Origin: Terribacillus halophilus
GTDB lineage: Bacteria; Bacillota; Bacilli; Bacillales; Amphibacillaceae
Direction of reading: 5' to 3'
Length of the DNA: 64,000 bases
Assembly: GCF_900162685.1 (NCBI RefSeq)
Contig: NZ_LT727828.1
Span: 1,977,214 to 2,041,213 of the forward strand
Part shown: in pieces, positions 4,384 through 58,794 of the stretch
Numbering within the stretch: the stretch's first letter is position 1
Layout of the letters: each line of letters opens with the position of its first letter
The notes under the pieces: generated by a model
What the model saw: only the letters and a program-made list of their open reading frames with translations
Database searches by the model: none
Told to the model about the DNA's origin: nothing
Program-made: the position numbers and the translations under genes

Positions 4384-4701
4384 TCACCTCCGAGTGGATT
4401 CAGTGAGCAAAGATTTCAATTTGTCTGCAAAGCCTTTGTCTAAGACGGCAATTGCGACTCTGCCGGATTTACCAACCGCTTGTGATAATTGCTCCCGGTC
4501 CTCCTCTACCTGCAGAAAGGCGATGTTGTAAAAATCGGTCTTGTTGCGAAGCTTCTTTAAGGTTTGGGGACCGATATCACTGGCAGCTATTACTAGCTTT
4601 GCTTTCTGCCGCTGTACATCCCGGACGATGGCTTCTTCTCCAAAGGTACACTGTCCGGCACGCACAGCCAGCCCTAACAAATTCAAATAATTTTTACTCA
4701 T
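4384..4701 (-). CDS. rplGB: L7Ae-family ribosomal/K-turn binding protein YlxQ
   Basis: This 105-aa protein belongs to the L7Ae/L30e/S12e family (YlxQ, also called RplGB). These proteins bind kink-turn motifs in RNA. The N-terminus [23 protein letters not shown] matches the family, and [18 protein letters not shown] contains the conserved central strand-turn. It lies 4 bp upstream of infB and overlaps rnpM (ATGA), as in the B. subtilis nusA operon. The precise cellular target is not evident from the sequence. Confidence 0.92.
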
Positions 4702-4970
4702 GATTGCTGACCTTTCGCGATTCGCTCAAGCTCTTCATAAATAGAATCATCGATCTTTGTATTAAGATGGCGCGCCAGCGTATCTTGTTTCTTCGCTTTC
4801 TCGATGATCAGTGCATCCTTTGAAACATACGCACCGCGACCGTTCTTCTTGCCTGTATCATCCACGAACACTTCGCCTTCTTTGTTGCGGACGATACGAA
4901 TCAATTCCTGTTTCGGCTTCATTTCATTGGAAACCACACATTTTCGAAGCGGAACCTTTTTTTGCTTCAT
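4698..4970 (-). CDS. rnpM: RNase P modulator RnpM (YlxR)
   Basis: A 90-aa YlxR-family protein. It has the hallmark RKCVVSNEMKPKQELIRIVR (residues 9-28) and KKNGRGAYVS (residues 41-50). In B. subtilis the YlxR homologue has been reported to bind RNase P RNA and modulate its activity; I assign the function by family only. It is encoded between nusA and ylxQ in the conserved transcription/translation operon and overlaps ylxQ by 4 bp. Confidence 0.92.
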   Translation of the reverse strand: MKQKKVPLRKCVVSNEMKPKQELIRIVRNKEGEVFVDDTGKKNGRGAYVSKDALIIEKAKKQDTLARHLNTKIDDSIYEELERIAKGQQS

Positions 4971-4985
4971 ATACAGCGCCCCTTA

Positions 4986-6089
4986 TCAATATGTGTCTTC
5001 GTCAAAGTCATCGAAGTCGTCTGCTTCGGTATCTTGTACTGTCAAAATTCCGAGGTCTCGTGCTTCTGTCTCGGATTTAATATCGATTTTCCATCCAGTC
5101 AGCTTCGCTGCCAGACGGGCATTCTGGCCGCGTTTACCGATTGCCAGGCTTAGCTGGTAATCTGGCACGATGACCGTCGTCGCTTTTTCTTCTTCATCCA
5201 CTAATACTTGGATTACTTTAGATGGGCTTAATGCGTTTGATACATACTCGACTGGATCTTCAGACCACTCGACAATATCAATTTTTTCGCCTTTTAGTTC
5301 ATTTACGATTGCTTGTACACGCTGACCGCGCTGGCCAACACAAGAACCAACTGGATCAACTTCCGGCTGTGCTGCATAGACAGAAATCTTGGAACGGTCT
5401 CCAGCTTCTCTGGCTACGGAACGAATCTCCACAGTACCATCATAAATCTCAGGCACTTCCATTTCAAACAATCGCTTCAAAAGACCCGGGTGTGTCCGTG
5501 ACACAAAGATGCTAGGTCCTTTGTTCGTGTTCTCCACTTTTGTTACAAATACCTTTAAGCGGTCATGAATATCATATTTTTCCGTCGTCATCTGTTCGCT
5601 CTCAGGCAATTTCGCTTCAATCTTGCCCAGATCAACATAGATGAATCGCGGATCATTTCTGGAAACAATTCCCGTCATAACATCTTCTTCACGATCTGCA
5701 TATTCACTGAAGATGACGCCGCGTTCTGCTTCACGCACACGCTGTGTTACCACTTGTTTGGCTGCTTGTGCTGCAATTCGCCCGAAGTCTTTTGGTGTTA
5801 CTTCGATCTCAACAACGTCACCGATATCATATGTACCGGAAACTGCACGAGCTTCGTCTAAAGTCATCTGCAGCTGGCTGTCCTCGACTTCTTCGACGAC
5901 ATCCTTGCGCGCAAAGACTTTCATAGAACCAGTAGTTTCATTCAAATCAACACGTACATTTGTAGCAGATTTGAAATTCTTTTTATAAGCGGAGATCAAG
6001 GCTGCTTCCAGCGCTTCAATAAGGACGTCTTTATTAATCCCCTTCTCTTTCTCCAAATAATTAATGGCATCAAAAAGCTCGCTGCTCAC
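4986..6089 (-). CDS. nusA: Transcription termination/antitermination factor NusA
   Basis: NusA binds RNA polymerase and stimulates pausing and intrinsic termination, and supports antitermination on rRNA operons. The 367-aa protein has the N-terminal polymerase-binding domain (1 to about 130), an S1 domain (about 135-200) and two KH domains. Visible KH segments are VGQRGQRVQAI and LAIGKRGQNARLAAKLTGW. It lacks the C-terminal acidic repeats of proteobacterial NusA, as usual for Firmicutes. The C-terminal tail is acidic (DDFDDFDEDTY). It lies 14 bp downstream of rimP. Confidence 0.98.
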   Translation of the reverse strand: MSSELFDAINYLEKEKGINKDVLIEALEAALISAYKKNFKSATNVRVDLNETTGSMKVFARKDVVEEVEDSQLQMTLDEARAVSGTYDIGDVVEIEVTPKDFGRIAAQAAKQVVTQRVREAERGVIFSEYADREEDVMTGIVSRNDPRFIYVDLGKIEAKLPESEQMTTEKYDIHDRLKVFVTKVENTNKGPSIFVSRTHPGLLKRLFEMEVPEIYDGTVEIRSVAREAGDRSKISVYAAQPEVDPVGSCVGQRGQRVQAIVNELKGEKIDIVEWSEDPVEYVSNALSPSKVIQVLVDEEEKATTVIVPDYQLSLAIGKRGQNARLAAKLTGWKIDIKSETEARDLGILTVQDTEADDFDDFDEDTY

Positions 6090-6103
6090 TCGTATATCCC
6101 CCT

Positions 6104-6577
6104 TTAGTTAAACGTTACAGCCAGACGTGCCTTGGCGATTTTTTCGTAAGGAAGTGCCACTTCCTTCTTTCTCGCTTTGACCATGACTTCTAAAGTCAGA
6201 ACGTCGTCTTCGAACGCTTTCAACGTACCTTCGTACTCTTTCTCGTTATCAATCGGCTCATATAGCTTTACGTATACATTCTTGCCGATGTTTTTGGTAA
6301 TTGCTTGTTTCGTTTTAAGCGGTCTTTCCGCTCCTGGAGAAGAAACCTCCAAAAAGTATGGGAAATCAACCGGATCATTTTCATCTAGAATGGCGCTTAA
6401 TTTTTCTGAGACCACTGCGCATTCCTCGATGTCGATGCCTTCTGTCTTGTCGACATACACTCGCAAAAACCAGTTCTTTCCTTCTTTCACGAATTCCACA
6501 TCGACTAACTCAAGCTGCAGCTCTTCCACGATCGGTTGTAGATAATCTTCCGTAACTTCCGTTATATTGGCTGCCAA
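6104..6577 (-). CDS. rimP: Ribosome maturation factor RimP
   Basis: RimP assists 30S assembly. I choose the TTG at 6577, preceded by GGAGG 7 nt upstream, giving a 157-aa product that begins MAANITEVTEDYLQPIVEEL. A longer in-frame reading from 6685 has no ribosome binding site and would start inside a hairpin. The conserved core VEFVKEGKNWFLRVYVDK and FLEVSSPGAERPL (RimP signature) is present. It heads the operon rimP-nusA-rnpM-ylxQ-infB-ylxP-rbfA. The upstream region holds two hairpins that separate it from polC. Confidence 0.95.
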   Translation of the reverse strand: MAANITEVTEDYLQPIVEELQLELVDVEFVKEGKNWFLRVYVDKTEGIDIEECAVVSEKLSAILDENDPVDFPYFLEVSSPGAERPLKTKQAITKNIGKNVYVKLYEPIDNEKEYEGTLKAFEDDVLTLEVMVKARKKEVALPYEKIAKARLAVTFN

Positions 6578-11228: not shown

Positions 11229-12926
11229 TTATAGATAAGCAGCTAGTTGATCTAGCAGATCATTTTCATGTGAAACTGCTTCTTGTTCTGTATCACGGAA
11301 CTTCACTTCCACTTCGCCATTAGCAGCTAGTTTACCTACCGTAACGCGAACTGGAATACCAATCAAATCACTATCAGCGAATTTGACACCGGCACGTTCC
11401 TTACGATCATCGTACAACACATCGACGCCAGCTTCAAGTAATCTTTCATAAAGACGGTCTGACAGCTCACGCTGTTCGTCTTTTTTCGGATTCAAGCTGA
11501 TTAAATGCACTTGGAATGGACTGATTGCTTTCGGCCATATAACTGCTCCGTCCTTGCTATGCTGTTCAACAGCTGCTGCAAGCGTACGGGAAACACCGAT
11601 TCCGTAGCAACCCATAATAAGGTTCTGTGCTTTCCCTTGTTCGTCAAGGAATTTTGCCTGCATCTTATCTGCATAAAATTCGCCAAGTTTGAACACTTGT
11701 CCAATTTCAATTCCTTCTGCAAACTGGATAGTACCTTGACCATCTGGAGAAGCGTCTCCAGCTTGGATGAATCGAAGATCAGCATATTGCTTCACTTGGA
11801 AGTCACGCTCTGGATTTACGTTTTTAAAATGGTAACCATCTTCATTCGCACCGCATGTAACATTAGCAACATACTTCACACTATTATCAGCAATAACATC
11901 TACTGCTTCTGGTACATTGATTGGTCCAAGCGATCCAAAACCTGCTCCAAGAAGTTCTTTTACTTCTGCCTCATCCGCAAGCTCAACCAGCTGTGCCTGA
12001 TACAGGTTTTTCACCTTAATATCGTTAATATCATGATCACCGCGCGCGATAACCATTACGAGCTGTTCATCCACTTTGAAGACGACTGCTTTTAAGCCTT
12101 CTTCTAACGTATGACCAAGATAATCTGCAACTTGCTGCATCGTTTTTACATGTGGTGTTTCTACCTTCTCTAATGGCAGCGCTTCTGTTTCCGGCTTTTG
12201 GCCTTGATCAAGCACCTCTGCCATCTCAATATTAGCAGCATAATCTGATGTATCACTAAAGGCGATTGTGTCTTCCCCGACAGAGGCAAGCGCCATGAAT
12301 TCATGCGTATCTTTTCCGCCCATTGCACCAGAATCAGCAACAACTGCTCGGAAATTCAATCCTACGCGTTTGAAGATTCGATGGTAAGCATCAGACATTG
12401 TCTTATAGGCTTCATCTAGGCTTTCATAATCTGCATGGAAAGAATAAGCATCCTTCATAATAAATTCACGTCCGCGCAGCAGTCCAAAACGCGGACGCTG
12501 TTCATCACGGAACTTTGTTTGGATTTGATAAACTGTAAGCGGAAGTTTTTTGTAACTGTTCAACTCATCACGCACTAAGCTGGTTGTCACTTCCTCATGT
12601 GTAGGTCCGAGCGCAAACTGTCGGCTATTTCGGTCATGCATGCGCATTAGTTCAGGTCCGTACACCTTCCAGCGTCCTGTTTCCTGCCAAAGTTCTGCTG
12701 GCTGCAATGCCGGCATTAGCATCTCACTTGCTCCTGAACGATTCATTTCTTCCCGAATGATGGCTTCCACTTTACGCAGCACTTTTGTACCTAGCGGCAG
12801 GTAGCTGTATATTCCGGAGGCTGTCTGACGGATATAGCCACCTTTGACGAGTAGCTGATGACTGATAGCTTCCGCATCAGCCGGTACTTCTCTTAATGTT
12901 GGTATAAATGTTTTACTTTGTCGCAT
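11229..12926 (-). CDS. proS: Prolyl-tRNA synthetase
   Basis: Charges tRNA-Pro with proline. The 565-aa product is the bacterial type: a class II catalytic core with the motif 2 loop ([22 protein letters not shown], about residues 137-158), an INS editing domain between motifs 2 and 3 (about 225-405), motif 3 ([19 protein letters not shown], about 434-452), and a C-terminal anticodon-binding domain starting near [10 protein letters not shown]. It starts with ATG at 12926 and follows rseP by 15 bp. No T-box leader is visible upstream; it appears to be transcribed with rseP. Confidence 0.97.
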
Positions 12927-30415: not shown

Positions 30416-31495
30416 TTACATTTTACGCTCCGTCCGGTAAACAAAGGCAAGCACCTCCGCTACCGTCTGGAAAAATTCTTCCTGTATCGGCTGGTTAAGC
30501 TCTACTTTACTGTACAGTCCGCGAGCAAGCGGCTTGTTCTCTACCATCGTAACGTTGTTCGCTTTCGCTATTTCTCTGATTTTGAATGCTACATGGTCCA
30601 TCCCTTTTGCTACGACAATCGGAGTATCTGACTTCGATTCGTCGTATCGAATAGCAATAGCGAAATGCGTCGGGTTGGTAATGACGACATCTGCTTTTGG
30701 AACTTCACTCATCATGCGCATCGCGGACATCTGCCGCTGCTTTTCTTTTATCTTGGAACGAATGAGCGGGTTTCCTTCCATGTTCTTATGTTCATCCTTG
30801 ATGTCTTGCTTGGACATCTTAATATTTTTCTCAAAGTCAAAGCGCTGGTAAACGTAATCAATCACAGCAATGAACAGCAGCACAACTGTTGCAGCAAATC
30901 CCATATACAAAGTAATTCTGCCAAAGAACTGTAATGCATTTTCTGCGGTTTTCGTGAACATTGTCATCACCGTGTCCATGTTCTGCCACAGAATAAAAAA
31001 TGTAACTGCTCCCACCATGCTGATCTTGAGCAACGACTTTACTAGCTCCACTAAAGCTCTCGCAGAAAAAATACGTTTAGCACCTTGAATCGGGTCCATT
31101 TTTTTTAAATCAAATTTTATAGCCTCTGGGCTGAAAAGGAAGCCAAACTGCGCAAAGTTGGAAACTACTCCTGCAATAATGGCAATACCCATAACTGGTC
31201 CTACAATTTTAGCTAGTGAGATGCTCATCTCTACCAGCAAGGTCTGCACAGTATTCGCAGTAATATCTTTTGTGAGATATTCATCAAATACATGGGTAAA
31301 GAGATAAAGAAACTGGTTCTTAAAATATCCGCCCATTAAAGCGAGCAAACCTAACGATAACAAAAGCAGAAAAGCCGTATTGATATCTTGACTCTTGGCT
31401 ACCTGCCCTTTTTTCCTTGTATCTTGTCGTTTCTTCGATGTCGCTTTTTCCGTTTTCTCACCAGCGAAAAACTGCAGGTCTAAACGGTACTTCAT
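30416..31495 (-). CDS. flhB: Flagellar export switch protein FlhB
   Basis: Export component whose C-terminal domain autocleaves to switch substrate class from hook to filament. The 359-aa protein has four membrane helices and the self-cleavage motif NPTH (Asn-Pro-Thr-His, about residues 267-270) in VVITNPTHFAIAIRYD. The FlhB_C tail resembles YlqH, encoded at 56.8 kb. It directly abuts fliR (stop codon followed at once by ATG). Confidence 0.97.
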   Translation of the reverse strand: MKYRLDLQFFAGEKTEKATSKKRQDTRKKGQVAKSQDINTAFLLLLSLGLLALMGGYFKNQFLYLFTHVFDEYLTKDITANTVQTLLVEMSISLAKIVGPVMGIAIIAGVVSNFAQFGFLFSPEAIKFDLKKMDPIQGAKRIFSARALVELVKSLLKISMVGAVTFFILWQNMDTVMTMFTKTAENALQFFGRITLYMGFAATVVLLFIAVIDYVYQRFDFEKNIKMSKQDIKDEHKNMEGNPLIRSKIKEKQRQMSAMRMMSEVPKADVVITNPTHFAIAIRYDESKSDTPIVVAKGMDHVAFKIREIAKANNVTMVENKPLARGLYSKVELNQPIQEEFFQTVAEVLAFVYRTERKM

Positions 31496-37993: not shown

Positions 37994-38440
37994 TTATTCG
38001 TTGCTAACCTTCGTCACCGCATCTGCGAAAATTGACTTTCCGTTCTCCAATTCAAGCACCGCATAACCACCCTTTTGGGTAATGGCTTTTACTTTGCTTG
38101 TAATAGTGTCCGTAACCGTTTGACCTGTTTCCTCATCATATTCGTTATATGTCACTTGTTTATCAATCATATGACTATATTGGAGAACTGGCGACATGCT
38201 TGTTTGCTTACCAGCAATTTTTTGAACAGCTTCTGAAATATTCATTACCTGTTCTAGGTTAGTGAAAGTGGTCATTTGATCCACAAACTTTGAATCGTCC
38301 ATAGGACTGGTCGGATCCTGGTTCTGTAATTGAACCATTAAGATTTGGAGGAAATCATCTTTATCAAGCGTAGCACTTGGCGTGCGTGTTGATTGCGAGT
38401 CCAGATAGTAGTTAGAGTCTATAGCTCCTGTTGTCTTCAT
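37994..38440 (-). CDS. flgD: Flagellar hook cap protein FlgD
   Basis: Caps the growing hook and is needed for its polymerisation. The 148-aa protein contains the FlgD signature DKDDFLQILMVQLQNQDPTSPMDDSKFVDQMTTFTNLEQ (in two parts, about residues 25-63). It is short, as in B. subtilis, and lacks the large FlgD Ig domain of enterobacteria. Its ATG overlaps the fliK stop (ATGA). Confidence 0.95.
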   Translation of the reverse strand: MKTTGAIDSNYYLDSQSTRTPSATLDKDDFLQILMVQLQNQDPTSPMDDSKFVDQMTTFTNLEQVMNISEAVQKIAGKQTSMSPVLQYSHMIDKQVTYNEYDEETGQTVTDTITSKVKAITQKGGYAVLELENGKSIFADAVTKVSNE

Positions 38441-39831
38441 ATCCTTATCTCCTTCTGTTCAGATAATATATCTGCAAACGCGAAATCGGTATTCTCTCGT
38501 GTAAGATTATTTCGCTGTTCCTGCTGTTTTTCTTTTCTCTCCTCATCAGCATTATCTTGAAAACTTTGGTCCGTGTTTCTCTCTGCCTGAGACCCGTCCG
38601 GTTGATCAACTCTTTCCAAAATACTCACCTGATGAGGCGAGAACATGTGCTTAAGACTAGATATATTAGAGTCCAGCATATCCTTGGCTTGTTTAGAAGC
38701 AGCAATTATCTGAACTGTAATCTCACCATTTTCACGATGTAACTTTACTTGTAAATCCCCTAAGTTACCGGGACGAAGCTGTATTGAGAGTTCCTTCAGG
38801 CCATTCCTGTCAGATAATATTCCGCTAAATTTTACTGCTTGCTCTATTTTTTCTACTAGCTCTTTACCTGCTTGCTGCGGAACTTGATCAGCTTGTTTTA
38901 AGTGGAAGACAAGCTGTTCCTGTTTAGACATCTGGAAATTACTCACTTGCTTCGAATCTAATGGTATAGATTCCTCTTGCTGCTGATTCACAACATTACC
39001 TAACGATGATTTTCCAGCTCTGTTAGAAGACTCAACAATACTTTGGATTGCTTTTGCTGTTTCCGTAACTGTCTGCTTACCGACAGCGTGCTGCATGGAT
39101 GCGGAAGCGTTACTAGGTTGCTGTTTTACTGTCAATTGATCTGTCGGCGTATTTTTTTTTACAAGCGTCTGTGTTCCATGAGATTCTGAAATTGAGGTTC
39201 GACCTTGTAATTTCAACCAGGCTGCATTCGATTCTGTCTCCTTAACTGGAGCTGCTTGACCAACAGTAGTCTTTTGCAAACTGACTGCAGTGTTAGCTGG
39301 TCGATTACCCATTAATTCACTCGAGAATACGTGTGAAGAGGCTGCTTTTTCTTGCGCTGCGTTTTTTGACACGTAGTGAATACTGTCCGTGTTCATAAGA
39401 TATGATTGCAACCCTTGAAGTTTCTCTAGAAGCCCTTCAACGGATAAATTGTTATGATCTGCCTTTATGTCTTTAAGAATTGTCTCTGCCTTTACTTTTA
39501 TTTGATCGGGCAAATAGGCAGTAAGTTTATCTTCTCCTAGCACTTGCTCCATTAATTCCCAAGCATTTGCAGGCTGTTCTTTTAACTGCATAGATCCATT
39601 GTCTGGTAGTTTATCAAAGAATGCTTGTAAAATAACCTGTATATCCTGCTTATCTTGTAAGTCCAGATCCTGATTGCTCTTGGAGTCTTTATTTACTGCC
39701 AGCTCGGTATTTTTATCTGTACTAACTTGCTGAAACAGACTTTGAAAGAGGCTATCCCCTGAGGAAGATTGATTCTGTTGACCTTTCACAATCCCCGCCG
39801 CTTGCAGCAGTGGTGTAATTACATTATTCAA
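38437..39831 (-). CDS. fliK: Flagellar hook-length control protein FliK
   Basis: Measures hook length and triggers the FlhB substrate switch. I take the TTG at 39831, preceded by GGGGGG 8 nt upstream and 4 nt after the ylxF stop, giving 464 aa. An ATG nine codons earlier lies inside ylxF without a ribosome binding site. The N-terminal two thirds are low-complexity and Gln/Ser-rich, as expected. The conserved C-terminal domain includes LRPGNLGDLQVKLHRENGEITVQI (about residues 360-383). Confidence 0.92.
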   Translation of the reverse strand: MNNVITPLLQAAGIVKGQQNQSSSGDSLFQSLFQQVSTDKNTELAVNKDSKSNQDLDLQDKQDIQVILQAFFDKLPDNGSMQLKEQPANAWELMEQVLGEDKLTAYLPDQIKVKAETILKDIKADHNNLSVEGLLEKLQGLQSYLMNTDSIHYVSKNAAQEKAASSHVFSSELMGNRPANTAVSLQKTTVGQAAPVKETESNAAWLKLQGRTSISESHGTQTLVKKNTPTDQLTVKQQPSNASASMQHAVGKQTVTETAKAIQSIVESSNRAGKSSLGNVVNQQQEESIPLDSKQVSNFQMSKQEQLVFHLKQADQVPQQAGKELVEKIEQAVKFSGILSDRNGLKELSIQLRPGNLGDLQVKLHRENGEITVQIIAASKQAKDMLDSNISSLKHMFSPHQVSILERVDQPDGSQAERNTDQSFQDNADEERKEKQQEQRNNLTRENTDFAFADILSEQKEIRI

Positions 39832-39835
39832 CCGC

Positions 39836-40465
39836 TTATCCCCCCTTCTCGGCTTCATCCACCATGGTACTTGTGTATGACGCTGCAGCTTCCGGATCCA
39901 TTTCTGCTAGAATTGTTCCTCGCTTCTTACCAGAAAGCTGCTGAAGGACACCTAATGCTTTTTCACTGTCCAGCTTACTGATGATTGCGGCAGCCTTGCT
40001 GTCTTCCATTTTATTAAAAGAAGTTGCAGCTTCTTTATAAGGAGATATTTCTTCTTCTCCCTCGGCCTCACTATTACTGCCGGCCGTTTGTGCTGTTGCA
40101 TCACTAGCTGGTTCAGCACCGTTTAATTGGTTCTTTAGCTTGAGGATTTGTTGATTCAGATCATCAATTTCTGCGTTTTTCGCGTCTTCCGTCTCTTTCA
40201 TCATATCAATGGCCTCTTGCTGCTCTTTCAGCTGTTTTTTAAGTTTTTCTGTATCTGCTGAACTAGTGGCTGGTGCTGCAGTCTCTTCACTGACGAGATT
40301 TCCAATTACCGGGATACCAGAAGCTACCTTTGCAACAGATACGCCCGAGAATTCGAGTATCGCGACGACAAGTAGTGCTGCTAGTACAATTGGCAAGAGA
40401 AAATAAAGTAAGAATCCTTTGCCTTTTCCTTTTTTCTTTTGTTGATCTGTTTTTTGTTTTGCCAT
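39836..40465 (-). CDS. ylxF: YlxF, MotE-like flagellar operon protein
   Basis: A 209-aa single-pass protein encoded between fliJ and fliK. It has a basic N-terminus, one membrane helix (about residues 20-42, LLYFLLPIVLAALLVVAILEF), a long coiled coil (about 75-115) and a MgtE-N-like C-terminal domain with FNKMEDSKAAAIISKLDSEKALGVLQQLSGKKRG. Proteins of this layout are called MotE or YlxF; a role as a chaperone or regulator in flagellar assembly is inferred. The ATG at 40465 follows the fliJ stop by one base. Confidence 0.9.
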   Translation of the reverse strand: MAKQKTDQQKKKGKGKGFLLYFLLPIVLAALLVVAILEFSGVSVAKVASGIPVIGNLVSEETAAPATSSADTEKLKKQLKEQQEAIDMMKETEDAKNAEIDDLNQQILKLKNQLNGAEPASDATAQTAGSNSEAEGEEEISPYKEAATSFNKMEDSKAAAIISKLDSEKALGVLQQLSGKKRGTILAEMDPEAAASYTSTMVDEAEKGG

Positions 40466-47279: not shown

Positions 47280-48056
47280 TTAACTCGTATGTTTTTGTAG
47301 CTCTACTAAGAATTTATTGTTAAGAACTTTGATATAAGTTCCTTTCATACCTAACGAACGAGATTCGATAACGCCTGCACTCTCAAGCTTACGCAGTGCG
47401 TTTACAATAACGGAACGCGTAATACCGACACGGTCGGCAACTTTACTTGCCACAAGCAAGCCTTCACTTCCATCCAGCTCTTCGAAGATGTGCTCGATTG
47501 CTTCTAATTCGCTATAAGACAATGAACTAATCGCCATTTGTACAACAGCTTTACTGCGTGCTTCTGTTTCAATTTCCGCTGATTTTTGATGAAGTATTTC
47601 CATACCTACTACTGTTGCACCGTATTCTGCTAGAAGTAGATCATCATCACTGAAGTTCTCTGCGATTCGGCTCAAAATCAAAGTACCAAGACGCTCTCCA
47701 CCGCCGATAATTGGTACAATTGTTGTTAATCCGCCTTGGAAGAGATCTTTATTCTCGACAGGGAACGCTGTGTATGGGCTGTCGATATCAATATTAGCTG
47801 TTGTCTGCTGAATTTGGAATAAACTATCTGTGTATTCTTTCGGGAACTGTCTTTCTTCAAGCATTTGTTTCATCCGGTCATTTTCAATTGCCTGGTTAAT
47901 GCTAAACCCGAGCAGTTTACCGCGACGACTGACAATGAAAGTGTTACTCTCAATAACTTGCTGAAGTGTTTCCGACATATTATTAAAGTTAACAGCCTTT
48001 CCTGCTGTCTTTTGCAGCATAAAGTTTATATCTCTTGTTTTATCTAATAATTTCAT
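47280..48056 (-). CDS. codY: GTP/branched-chain amino acid sensing repressor CodY
   Basis: Global regulator of stationary-phase and nutrient-limitation genes, activated by isoleucine/valine/leucine and GTP. The 258-aa protein has an N-terminal GAF domain (about residues 1-155, with [26 protein letters not shown]) and a C-terminal winged helix with the recognition helix segment [34 protein letters not shown] (about 203-236). It is the last gene of the xerC operon, as in B. subtilis. Confidence 0.98.
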
Positions 48057-56737: not shown

Positions 56738-56760
56738 AAGCATCCTGCAGTAGGATGCTT
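56738..56760 (-). terminator. ylqH intrinsic terminator
   Basis: A perfect 9-bp stem AAGCATCCT/AGGATGCTT with a 5-nt loop, then TTTTCC on the minus strand. The stem includes the ylqH stop codon region. Downstream, 56622-56737 shows no gene. Confidence 0.85.
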
Positions 56761-57034
56761 ACTCTCCCGCCTGTTTGTCCGCTTGATAGATAAAAGCAAA
56801 AACTTCTGCCACAGCTTCGTATAAATCTGCCGGAATTGTATCGTTTACCTTTAATTCGCTTAATAGACCTACCAATGCAGGGTCTTGCTGGATTGGGACA
56901 CCATTATCTTCGGCACGCTTGATTATAGCTTCAGCGGTTAGACCGTGCCCACTCGCTGTAAGCACAGGGGCGCGCTGCTTCGCTGCATTATATTTTAAAG
57001 CTGCTGCTTGGCGTACAGGATGCTTGTCTGTCAT
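56759..57034 (-). CDS. ylqH: YlqH, FlhB C-terminal-domain paralogue (FlhX-like)
   Basis: A 91-aa protein homologous to the cytoplasmic FlhB_C domain: RQAAALKYNAAKQRAPVLTASGHGLTAEAIIKRAEDNGVPIQ, then LYEAVAEVFAFIYQ, matching the AEVLAFVYR end of FlhB at 30.4 kb. It lacks the membrane part and the NPTH cleavage motif. It overlaps ylqG (ATGA), so a FliK-like protein and an FlhB-like protein are made together. A role in secretion switching is inferred only from homology. Confidence 0.88.
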   Translation of the reverse strand: MTDKHPVRQAAALKYNAAKQRAPVLTASGHGLTAEAIIKRAEDNGVPIQQDPALVGLLSELKVNDTIPADLYEAVAEVFAFIYQADKQAGE

Positions 57035-58794
57035 ATCCGGAAATCGACTCCTCTCTGTTCAAAGGATACGTTTGGCTTCGCAGCAGTATACTGACTGCCT
57101 GTATTAGCTTTTCTCGACAAAGAATATTTTACAGAGGAGAGATGATAGCCGCTATTTTCTAATGCTGCCTTCAACTTGTTCTGCAGCGGCCGCATTGCAA
57201 TCTCTGTTGCTTCAGATTGTGTATAAATATGCAAATTAACTGTCTTTTTCTGCACAAACATGTCAACTGCCAGCTCTTTCAGAACCGGCATATCCAGATA
57301 GAACATGATCCGGCAATGTTCTGCAGATAATTGGCCATCAGCTTCTTTTCTGCTCTCGATGTCCAGGAGCATATCCTTGTCCAGACCAAACGGTGCACCA
57401 GGCAATTGCAGCTGAATATAAGCCATTTGCTTGTCATCTTGAACTTGCAGCAGCTGACTGCCAGTAATTTGCTGCAGCAGCTGAGAAGATAGCTCTGCTT
57501 TCTCGGCCCCTGATGCATAATGCTGAAGAAGCAATCCTTTTAAAGGCAGCTCCGTTACAGCATGTGCCAAATCGTGTTCATAGGAAAATCCCGTCACCCG
57601 AAACACGTCTTGCAACAGCACTTTAAAAAATGCACCATCTTTGCTTTGCTCATTCCGCTGCGCCAACTGGAGAAGCTGCAGCATGTCTGAAGTTTTTGCC
57701 AACAGTTCCTCATGCTTCGGGTTGCTGTTTGTGAGCATTTCTTGTAATTTCTGAGATGTTGAGACCATGTTGAACGCATCTAACGCCTTGCTTACGCTGG
57801 CTTGAACATTTTGTGCTAGTGGCTGGTCCGGGAACATACGAAGCAGCTGCTGCGCTGTAGAAAGTGCTGTTTGAGCATTTGACTGCGCAGCAGCAATCGG
57901 TTTCGCAGCCTGTTGTATTTCTTCCATAAATGATTGCAAAGCAACCGAGAAAGGAATTTTGCCTTCTTTCGAAAAGCCGTTTATGACTAATTGCTGCAGA
58001 CTTTGCATATCCATTGCTTTTAGTGTCTTTGCGTCAAAAGTCAGCCACTTCTCTTGCCACGTGTTATATGCTGGCGGATTGGAGGAAAAAAATGGTCGAA
58101 TCGCTTGATACGTATCCTGCTTTCCTGATTTCACTTCGTGGACGATCTGCTGCACAAGCTGTGCGTTATTTCCTATGGCACTACCAGGCGCCAATTTACC
58201 AAGTACGTTCTGAAGAGGCAAGTTTATCTTTCCGTCCGCTGGTGAAGCTTGCGCCAGCTGCCGTATGGATGCTGTCATATCCATCGTTTGACGTGCTGTG
58301 ATTGCTTGCAGCACATTTGCTGATAGCGGCAGCTGTCGTTTTAGCATGACTTGCAATGCTTCTTTGCTGACATCTATTACGCGTGGCTCCTGCTGCTGAA
58401 GAAGCTGTAATGCTTGTTTCAACTCTGGCATCGTAAAAGAAATTTGCTGTTTTCGCAGTGTTTCTACAAAGCTGCTAGCCGTGCTGTTTACCTTATTGCC
58501 AGTGAACTCAATTAAACCTGCGATACTGCTATGCTTTTGCACTGTTTGCGGAAGCACTTGCAGCACTGGGCGCTCGCCGCCTTCTTTTACTTCAAACCAA
58601 TAAGTACCCCCAGCTGCTAACTGCGTTTGTAATTCCGCAATCACCTGCTTGGCACCAATTTGCAGCAGCGCTTTGTTATCAGGAAAAAACTTATTGATTT
58701 TGCCTGTAACAATTTCACCTGCTCGCAGTGTTTTTTCCTGCTGCTGTGTTGCTTGCATAAGCCTCCCGGCCGCTTGAATTGATTGTTGATACAT
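57031..58794 (-). CDS. ylqG: YlqG, FliK-like protein of unknown function
   Basis: A 587-aa Gln/Ala/Leu-rich protein. The N-terminal half is low-complexity helical. The C-terminal part has the FliK/hook-length-like fold pattern with YIQLQLPGAPFGLDKDMLLDI, CRIMFYLDMPVLKELAVDMFVQKKTVNLHIYTQ (about residues 499-531) and a helix with MRPLQNKLKAALENSGYHLSSVKYS. Proteins of this kind (YlqG) accompany ylqH in Bacillus. Export or hook-related function is inferred. Confidence 0.82.
   Translation of the reverse strand: MYQQSIQAAGRLMQATQQQEKTLRAGEIVTGKINKFFPDNKALLQIGAKQVIAELQTQLAAGGTYWFEVKEGGERPVLQVLPQTVQKHSSIAGLIEFTGNKVNSTASSFVETLRKQQISFTMPELKQALQLLQQQEPRVIDVSKEALQVMLKRQLPLSANVLQAITARQTMDMTASIRQLAQASPADGKINLPLQNVLGKLAPGSAIGNNAQLVQQIVHEVKSGKQDTYQAIRPFFSSNPPAYNTWQEKWLTFDAKTLKAMDMQSLQQLVINGFSKEGKIPFSVALQSFMEEIQQAAKPIAAAQSNAQTALSTAQQLLRMFPDQPLAQNVQASVSKALDAFNMVSTSQKLQEMLTNSNPKHEELLAKTSDMLQLLQLAQRNEQSKDGAFFKVLLQDVFRVTGFSYEHDLAHAVTELPLKGLLLQHYASGAEKAELSSQLLQQITGSQLLQVQDDKQMAYIQLQLPGAPFGLDKDMLLDIESRKEADGQLSAEHCRIMFYLDMPVLKELAVDMFVQKKTVNLHIYTQSEATEIAMRPLQNKLKAALENSGYHLSSVKYSLSRKANTGSQYTAAKPNVSFEQRGVDFRI

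Follow-up and report, generated by a model that had tools for sequence, protein, structure and literature searches.

Why does a bacterium that already encodes a FliK and a full-length FlhB carry a second set of similar genes? The question is raised by ylqG-ylqH, two overlapping minus-strand genes in a 64,000-nucleotide stretch of the Terribacillus halophilus genome (contig NZ_LT727828.1, positions 1,977,214 to 2,041,213), called the window below. The upstream gene, ylqG (57031..58794), encodes a 587-residue protein that is the second FliK-like protein of the genome. The downstream gene, ylqH (56759..57034), encodes a 91-residue free-standing paralogue, of FlhX type, of the cleaved C-terminal fragment of FlhB (FlhB-CC, also FlhB-CCD). 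The answer favored here, with slightly better than even confidence, is that the pair encodes a second FliK/FlhB-CC cassette, a soluble one, whose target is the flagellar type III export gate. Its linkage to flagella as such is strong.

YlqH corresponds to just the fragment that is cleaved from FlhB. It matches PF01312 (Bac_export_2) only at profile positions 258-335 of 335 (E 1.4e-17), and the N-terminal transmembrane part of FlhB is missing, which bears out the initial annotation of YlqH as an FlhB C-terminal domain without the membrane part or the NPTH cleavage site. NPTH occurs in none of 93 YlqH sequences, the window's included; in a comparison set of 40 FlhB proteins it occurs in 36, with a variant in the other 4, and the full-length flhB of the window (30416..31495, minus strand) encodes it as well. 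Against TIGR00789 (flhB_rel), YlqH scores 95.5 bits (E 1.6e-27), under the cut-off of 117.35, a curated threshold exceeded in only 7 of 398 Bacilli genomes; judged by sequence, it is filed as a putative FlhX-type paralogue and not as a TIGR00789 equivalog. An AlphaFold2 model of YlqH has a mean predicted local distance difference test score (pLDDT) of 77, and all 25 Protein Data Bank (PDB) entries listed as matches are C-terminal domains of the FlhB/YscU family (Z 8.2-12.8), for example EscU 263-344, Salmonella FlhB 3b0z_B 270-353, and 3b1s_D 264-347. Within this shared fold, YlqH departs from FlhB-CC at positions that are nearly fixed in FlhB. It tends toward the signature D-P-x-L-V-E-L-L where FlhB reads N-P-L-A-R-x-L-Y, and every first-copy YlqH compared with FlhB carries a one-residue deletion at this site.

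Phylogenetic comparison also places YlqH on its own branch. A tree of 133 sequences (93 YlqH and 40 FlhB) was built from 97 columns by a quick method, with Shimodaira-Hasegawa-like approximate likelihood ratio test (SH-aLRT) values as the only support; locus L145 was left out here and in the NPTH count, and the tree also lacks the second copies of L074 and L077. One branch (SH-aLRT 95) splits the 40 FlhB-CC sequences from the 93 YlqH sequences, ten second-copy YlqH proteins form one clade (SH-aLRT 97), and the YlqH proteins of eight Campylobacterota loci stand apart from FlhB; the alignment is too short for the order of its deep branches to be relied on. Repeated truncation of the local FlhB, considered as an origin of YlqH, finds no support in this tree. 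Separately, the contig L095, which bears the title Chryseobacterium sp. ISL-80, has a YlqH that groups with Bacillaceae, and the record is perhaps mislabelled or contaminated.

Structurally, YlqG resembles FliK at its C-terminal end. It is encoded besides the fliK of the fla/che operon (38437..39858, minus strand), and it matches PF02120 (Flg_hook/FliK) at residues 496-561 (E 1.8e-5, 24.9 bits). Its AlphaFold2 model (mean pLDDT 78.7) comprises confident N- and C-terminal domains, a low-confidence helical middle, and a disordered tail. In Foldseek comparisons, the modelled C-terminal domain (about residues 388-563; 57106..57633, minus strand) aligns with Salmonella FliK-C 2rrl (root-mean-square deviation (rmsd) 2.0 over 64 columns, prob 1.00, E 0.25) and with the PscP switch domain 5cuk (rmsd 2.5 over 68 columns, prob 1.00, E 0.08). 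In a second comparison (VIA), the same two entries rank highest. Their rmsd is 11.1 over 85 residues for 2rrl and 3.5 over 78 for 5cuk, and each has Z 6.0, a level (below 8) that may reflect a common arrangement. Because 2rrl and 5cuk are both switch domains of the expected kind and the Flg_hook match falls at 496-561, the C-terminal domain is identified from its model as a FliK-type switch domain, as the initial annotation had proposed. YlqG differs from FliK in being encoded with YlqH and in its N-terminal domain (about residues 20-184; 58243..58737, minus strand), modelled as a barrel resembling the oligonucleotide/oligosaccharide-binding (OB) fold at 27-80 followed by helices at 91-183, with pLDDT mostly >90. 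Among the fold matches listed for this domain there are only generic OB folds, many of them nucleic-acid-binding proteins. Two side observations concern the wider family: DUF6240 may be a relative of it, and the Bacillus velezensis YlqG (L089 3280-4983) is annotated as a 'glycosyl transferase', which looks like a misannotation.

YlqG also ends in a short conserved tail that in part resembles some FliK tails. In the window, six codons (57034..57051, minus strand) encode the tail GVDFRI, and across 74 sequences the consensus is G-V-D-x-[RK]-[IVA], with D at -4 in 61, [RK] at -2 in 63, and [IVA] at -1 in 71; the count omits L099, L138, L145, and, for want of an upstream open reading frame (ORF), L152, L167, and L169. 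Among 14 Bacilli FliK-like ORFs, two of which are unlabelled and were assigned by their position, the last residue is A or V in 11, and six carry D or N at -4, as in VDYTA, VDYTV, INYTV, and IDLHV. For Salmonella FliK, the last five residues are proposed to act on FlhB-CCD in the account given in PMC13344023.

Genome surveys tie YlqH closely to flagella. The Bacilli set comprised 398 genomes at least 90% complete, in which FlhB was called by full-length PF01312 matches and six weaker matches (E 6e-4 to 2e-6) were scored as no FlhB. Full-length FlhB is present in 276 of them, and TIGR00789 matches these genomes at least twice in 247 cases and once in 29. A PF01312 check of 46 genomes identified the 29 single matches as FlhB (with a broken gene in G295) and the match in G409 as YlqH; each of 13 multi-match genomes checked holds one FlhB plus at least one C-terminal-only gene, and in the remaining multi-match genomes the second TIGR00789 match was assumed to be YlqH. 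On this basis, YlqH occurs in 247/276 genomes with FlhB versus 1/122 without it, G409 alone. In that genome, rated 100% complete, flhA-flhF-flhG lies directly after hslU (L208 9021-13119) with no flgB-flhB there, no flagellin match was found, and ylqH is kept (L065 6900-7901) with a ylqG that, by comparison with a relative's gene, is split over two frames; the two genes are a relic left after flagellum loss. FlhB, FlhA, flagellin, YlqG, and YlqH are all missing from G062 (genus g55) and G098 (family f33), which are separate losses within flagellated groups.

The association extends to a second phylum. Among 249 Pseudomonadota genomes, FlhB is found in 209, a figure in which some full-length matches may be virulence-type FlhB relatives and one weak match (G681) is scored as none. 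TIGR00789 matches the same 209, as compared by eye, and none of the 40 FlhB-lacking genomes, and a short YlqH frame (<=230 residues) is present in at least 100. Fisher's test, uncorrected for relatedness, gives p of about 1e-72 for Bacilli and about 1e-10 for the lower-bound count in Pseudomonadota. The initial annotation had named presence of the pair in many non-flagellated relatives as the observation that would speak against a flagellar role; YlqH was found in one of 122 FlhB-lacking Bacilli and none of 40 FlhB-lacking Pseudomonadota.

The two genes also behave as a unit. A YlqG profile search found YlqG in 19 of 23 Bacilli genomes tested that have both YlqH and FlhB, and in none of 29 FlhB-only Bacilli genomes apart from one weak, partial C-terminal match in G105 (E 1.4e-4), which lies 8 kb from that genome's own flhB. 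In G198, sucC directly follows rnhB with nothing between, and its congener G072 carries the pair. The best 80 of 560 confirmed YlqH relatives from a contig scan comprise 52 Bacilli-type loci (including the metagenome-assembled genome (MAG) L118 and L095) and 28 others, with representatives from Pseudomonadota, Campylobacterota, Hydrogenedentota, Syntrophales and other Desulfobacterota-type lineages, Nitrospirae, Methylomirabilota, Margulisbacteria, and Planctomycetota. Conservation, noted initially for Bacillaceae, thus extends far outside that family. In 77 of these best 80 loci, a same-strand ORF of at least 150 residues, mostly of YlqG/FliK type, lies just upstream of YlqH, and the overlap is exactly 4 nucleotides in 54 (48/52 Bacilli-type and 6/28 others; L138 is among the 54). 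The upstream ORF is something other than YlqG in three of the 77: L138, taken up below; L099, where an inserted ORF precedes ylqH and a YlqG-type ORF precedes the insert; and L145 (Peribacillus frigoritolerans RU293, 4531-6159), where a ylqG fragmented into frames is followed by a short ylqH frame, apparently a pair in decay. Of the three loci without an upstream ORF, L152 and L167 end at a contig edge, with part of a FliK-type ORF visible in L167, and L169 has none upstream.

Outside Bacilli, the FliK-type partner and FlhB are both common. FliK-like partner proteins from Pseudomonas aeruginosa, Cupriavidus, L144, and others exceed the Flg_hook gathering score, and a scan of 30 mostly non-Bacilli proteins, drawn from 27 loci of the 80-locus set (25 non-Bacilli), the window, and two plasmid-collection loci, gave Flg_hook matches (E up to 0.1) for 29. 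Of the 28 genomes searched for FlhB (those of 27 non-Bacilli loci and of L104), 25 have it, one of them in partial form. The three genomes without it are MAGs: one has FlhA and flagellin, one has 21 flagellin matches, and in the third the pair adjoins flgF-flgG. Fusion of YlqG to YlqH, which would have shown the partnership directly, was considered for the long-frame stretches L155 and L226-L234 and discarded, as none is fused and the FliK-type ORF is a separate frame. This ORF lies just upstream of YlqH in seven of eight Pseudomonadota long-frame stretches and was not found in L233.

Genomic context adds a link to flagellar genes. Of the 28 non-Bacilli loci, 15 have a gene for flagellar structure, export, or a flagellar chaperone no more than 6 kb away (a raw count at blastp E 1e-5, with several loci cut by contig ends), namely L121, L130, L142, L144, L148, L149, L151, L152, L153, L154, L161, L162, L166, L167, and L169. 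Outside these 15, the labels are limited to flhF-flhG-fliA in L168, to chemotaxis in L170, and to a single response regulator in L150. The order in L144 is flgK-flgL-csrA-fliW-ylqG-ylqH-?-hag-?-fliD-fliS, and in L151, L152, L153, and L162 ylqH is followed by the rod genes flgF, flgG, and flgA. A P. aeruginosa plasmid record shows a 4-bp overlap between the two genes, with ccm genes next to the pair; on a Cupriavidus metallidurans megaplasmid, the Flg_hook protein gene overlaps ylqH by 4 bp, with fliE next.

Second copies of the pair occur in late-flagellar clusters. Among 11 second-copy loci chosen for fetching, nine have the order YlqG2-YlqH2-(FliS-like)-flagellin, with the FliS-like gene in eight of the nine (not L072). 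The second copy of L077 lies within a flgK-flgL-yviE-fliW-csrA cluster, and that of L080 is adjoined by DUF327. Pfam confirms FliS, flagellin, and DUF327 in L033, and FliD, FliS, FliW, and FlgK in L079. As side observations, a DUF327 (YaaR) gene lies near the second copy in nine of the 11 loci (L033, at 11880-12317, L034, L070, L071, L072, L076, L077, L079, and L080; not L074 or L078) and may belong to the same late-export business as the pair. L070 (7847-10584) has two YlqH2 genes around one YlqG2, followed by a FliS-like gene and flagellin.

In Salmonella, the account in PMC13344023 describes FliK-dependent removal of FlhB-CCD as the step that flips the switch and opens late export. Given this ejection model, an unattached FlhB-CC equivalent that has a dedicated FliK-type partner is most readily interpreted as a second set of switch parts. 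Within the favored cassette reading, YlqH would be a detached, ready-made counterpart of the fragment that FliK reportedly ejects at the hook-to-filament switch. YlqG would be its dedicated FliK-type partner, whose switch domain and tail may bind YlqH and perhaps also FlhB-CC. The pair could provide an FlhB-CC-like plug, hold it, or take it away, and so tune the substrate choice of the gate, most plausibly in the late, filament stage. Complex formation, docking on FlhB, and the direction of the effect, that is, the switch mechanism itself, are put forward as predictions. The initial annotation had suggested a modulator of export specificity, an interpretation that finds partial support. A link to flagella is backed strongly by co-occurrence, co-loss, neighborhood, and second copies in late-flagellar clusters; the modulator role agrees, at the level of sequence, with the domains and the tail. 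A bolder and rather improbable extension is that the switch is not one-way in many flagellated bacteria: YlqH, managed by YlqG, would re-plug the gate after FlhB-CC ejection and reset or grade substrate choice, for example in pausing and resuming filament export or in repair, with the second copies as filament-stage versions.

Several observations weigh against the cassette. The Flg_hook score of YlqG, 24.9 bits, is under the Pfam gathering score of 29.8, and its C-terminal domain gives only modest fold matches (Foldseek E 0.25 and 0.08; Z 6.0). Of 58 YlqG proteins from a mostly Bacilli set, only 29 match Flg_hook at E 0.1, so the kinship of Bacilli YlqG to FliK leans on alignment and fold; 12 of the 58 touch DUF6240 instead of or besides Flg_hook (best E 4.9e-5), and the second-copy YlqG2 of L033 has no Pfam match at E 0.001. 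The four YlqH-positive genomes missed by the YlqG profile all belong to f29 or f61, and two f29 loci (G205, G026) have a short ORF at the ylqG place with weak Flg_hook matches (E 0.083 and 0.0051). The ORF preceding ylqH in L138 is of RecQ type. Since 29 of 276 FlhB-positive Bacilli are without the pair, it is dispensable for the flagellum as such. FliK tails agree with the YlqG tail only in part, three of the 14 being unlike it. Finally, the ribosome-binding stretch of ylqH overlaps the tail codons and may explain part of the tail's conservation; at 21 loci with other ylqG/ylqH spacing, D at -4 is retained in 13.

The alternatives use much of the same evidence. The best placed, itself unlikely, is a backup role: YlqH would be a spare FlhB-CC for a lost or damaged fragment and YlqG its chaperone, with no regulation in normal cells. 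The retained FlhB-CC fold would suit this, as would the title of Wand et al. 2006, which calls HP1575 a 'spare part' and by which HP1575 reportedly permits export when FlhB-CC is deleted. However, YlqH forms a family of its own, with a distinct signature and in most cases a FliK-type partner, which is more than a backup would call for, and second copies are retained in flagellin clusters. A decoy function is slightly less probable still. YlqH would then titrate FliK and YlqG would compete for FlhB-CC, setting switch timing or hook length without docking at the gate, as the likeness of the YlqG tail to some FliK tails and the common fold of YlqH and FlhB-CC would allow; yet the differences of YlqH at near-fixed FlhB positions suggest different partners, and the overlapping genes suggest that YlqG and YlqH may bind each other first.

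More doubtful again is an escort for late substrates, in which the pair would help bring flagellin-FliS to the gate, with YlqH as the gate-docking head and the YlqG N-terminal domain holding the substrate or chaperone. The nine second copies just upstream of flagellin, the FliS-like gene between them in eight, the like setting of L144 outside Bacilli, and the well-folded N-terminal domain of the model speak for it, but Bacilli first copies sit beside rnhB-sucC, and in L151, L152, L153, and L162 the pair precedes rod genes. Service to the ribosome/RNase HII neighborhood, with chance tracking of flagella, is very improbable: an OB-like domain matching nucleic-acid-binding proteins, rbgA-rnhB neighbors, and Bacilli first copies placed after rnhB favor it, but YlqH is near-absent from FlhB-lacking genomes in two phyla, its neighbors outside Bacilli are others, and second copies lie in flagellin clusters. 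A diverted, non-flagellar secretion system left no sign beside the pair, although no search was aimed at one.

Part of this system is already known. The name FlhX exists, HP1575 has been studied, and an 'flhX-fliK' locus is mentioned for Nitratiruptor in PMC9321776. FlhX/HP1575 of Helicobacter and Cj0848c of Campylobacter are, by name and description, lone FlhB C-terminal homologues like YlqH; the HP1575 work, by its title, concerns the FlhB-like protein alone, without a YlqG partner. Cj0849c adjoins the flhX gene Cj0848c by locus number and may be a counterpart of YlqG; its N-terminus is one of 42 among 321 screened fusions that drove export of a reporter (PMC2764114). A P457Q change in ylqG appears in four evolved B. 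subtilis PS-218 clones of a swarming study (PMC11523185), a weak link to swarming, as the clones share other mutations. Searches of the open-licence literature turned up no functional study of YlqG or the pair, nor any description of the two genes as a co-lost unit that spans phyla, of their late-flagellar second copies, or of the tail. These searches agree with the description 'poorly characterised'; relatives of YlqH are known under the name FlhX (HP1575).

The layout of the locus largely agrees with the initial annotation, including the coordinates and strand of both genes. The 4-bp overlap, an ATGA stop/start at 57031..57034 (minus strand), is read directly in the sequence, and ylqG and ylqH may be translationally coupled through it. 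The stretch GAGAGGAG, within and adjoining the GVDFRI codons of ylqG, resembles a ribosome-binding site for ylqH. The shared terminator proposed earlier has a counterpart in a terminator-like hairpin (56738..56760, minus strand; 9-bp stem plus T run) that starts immediately after the ylqH stop; such hairpins are not rare in the region, with nine found versus a mean of 4.9 in shuffles. Window gene names are readings of the ORFs, except for genes specifically tested. rnhB precedes ylqG in the window, as Bacilli first copies generally adjoin rnhB and sucC. codY ends at 47280, with flagellar genes beyond, which puts the pair in the same window as the fla/che operon and 9-10 kb upstream of it; the placement 'far from the flagellar operon' was overstated.

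Specificity switching by FliK and FlhB is a long-standing question, lately recast as FlhB-CC removal in Salmonella in the account of PMC13344023. The pair is older than first assumed, occurring with flagella in several phyla. With many flagellated relatives lacking both genes, with their presence in lab strains that are tractable, and with a predicted binding tail, it offers a direct handle on this question. Given how widely a detached FlhB-CC with a FliK-type partner is distributed, duplicate switch parts may exist in many bacteria.

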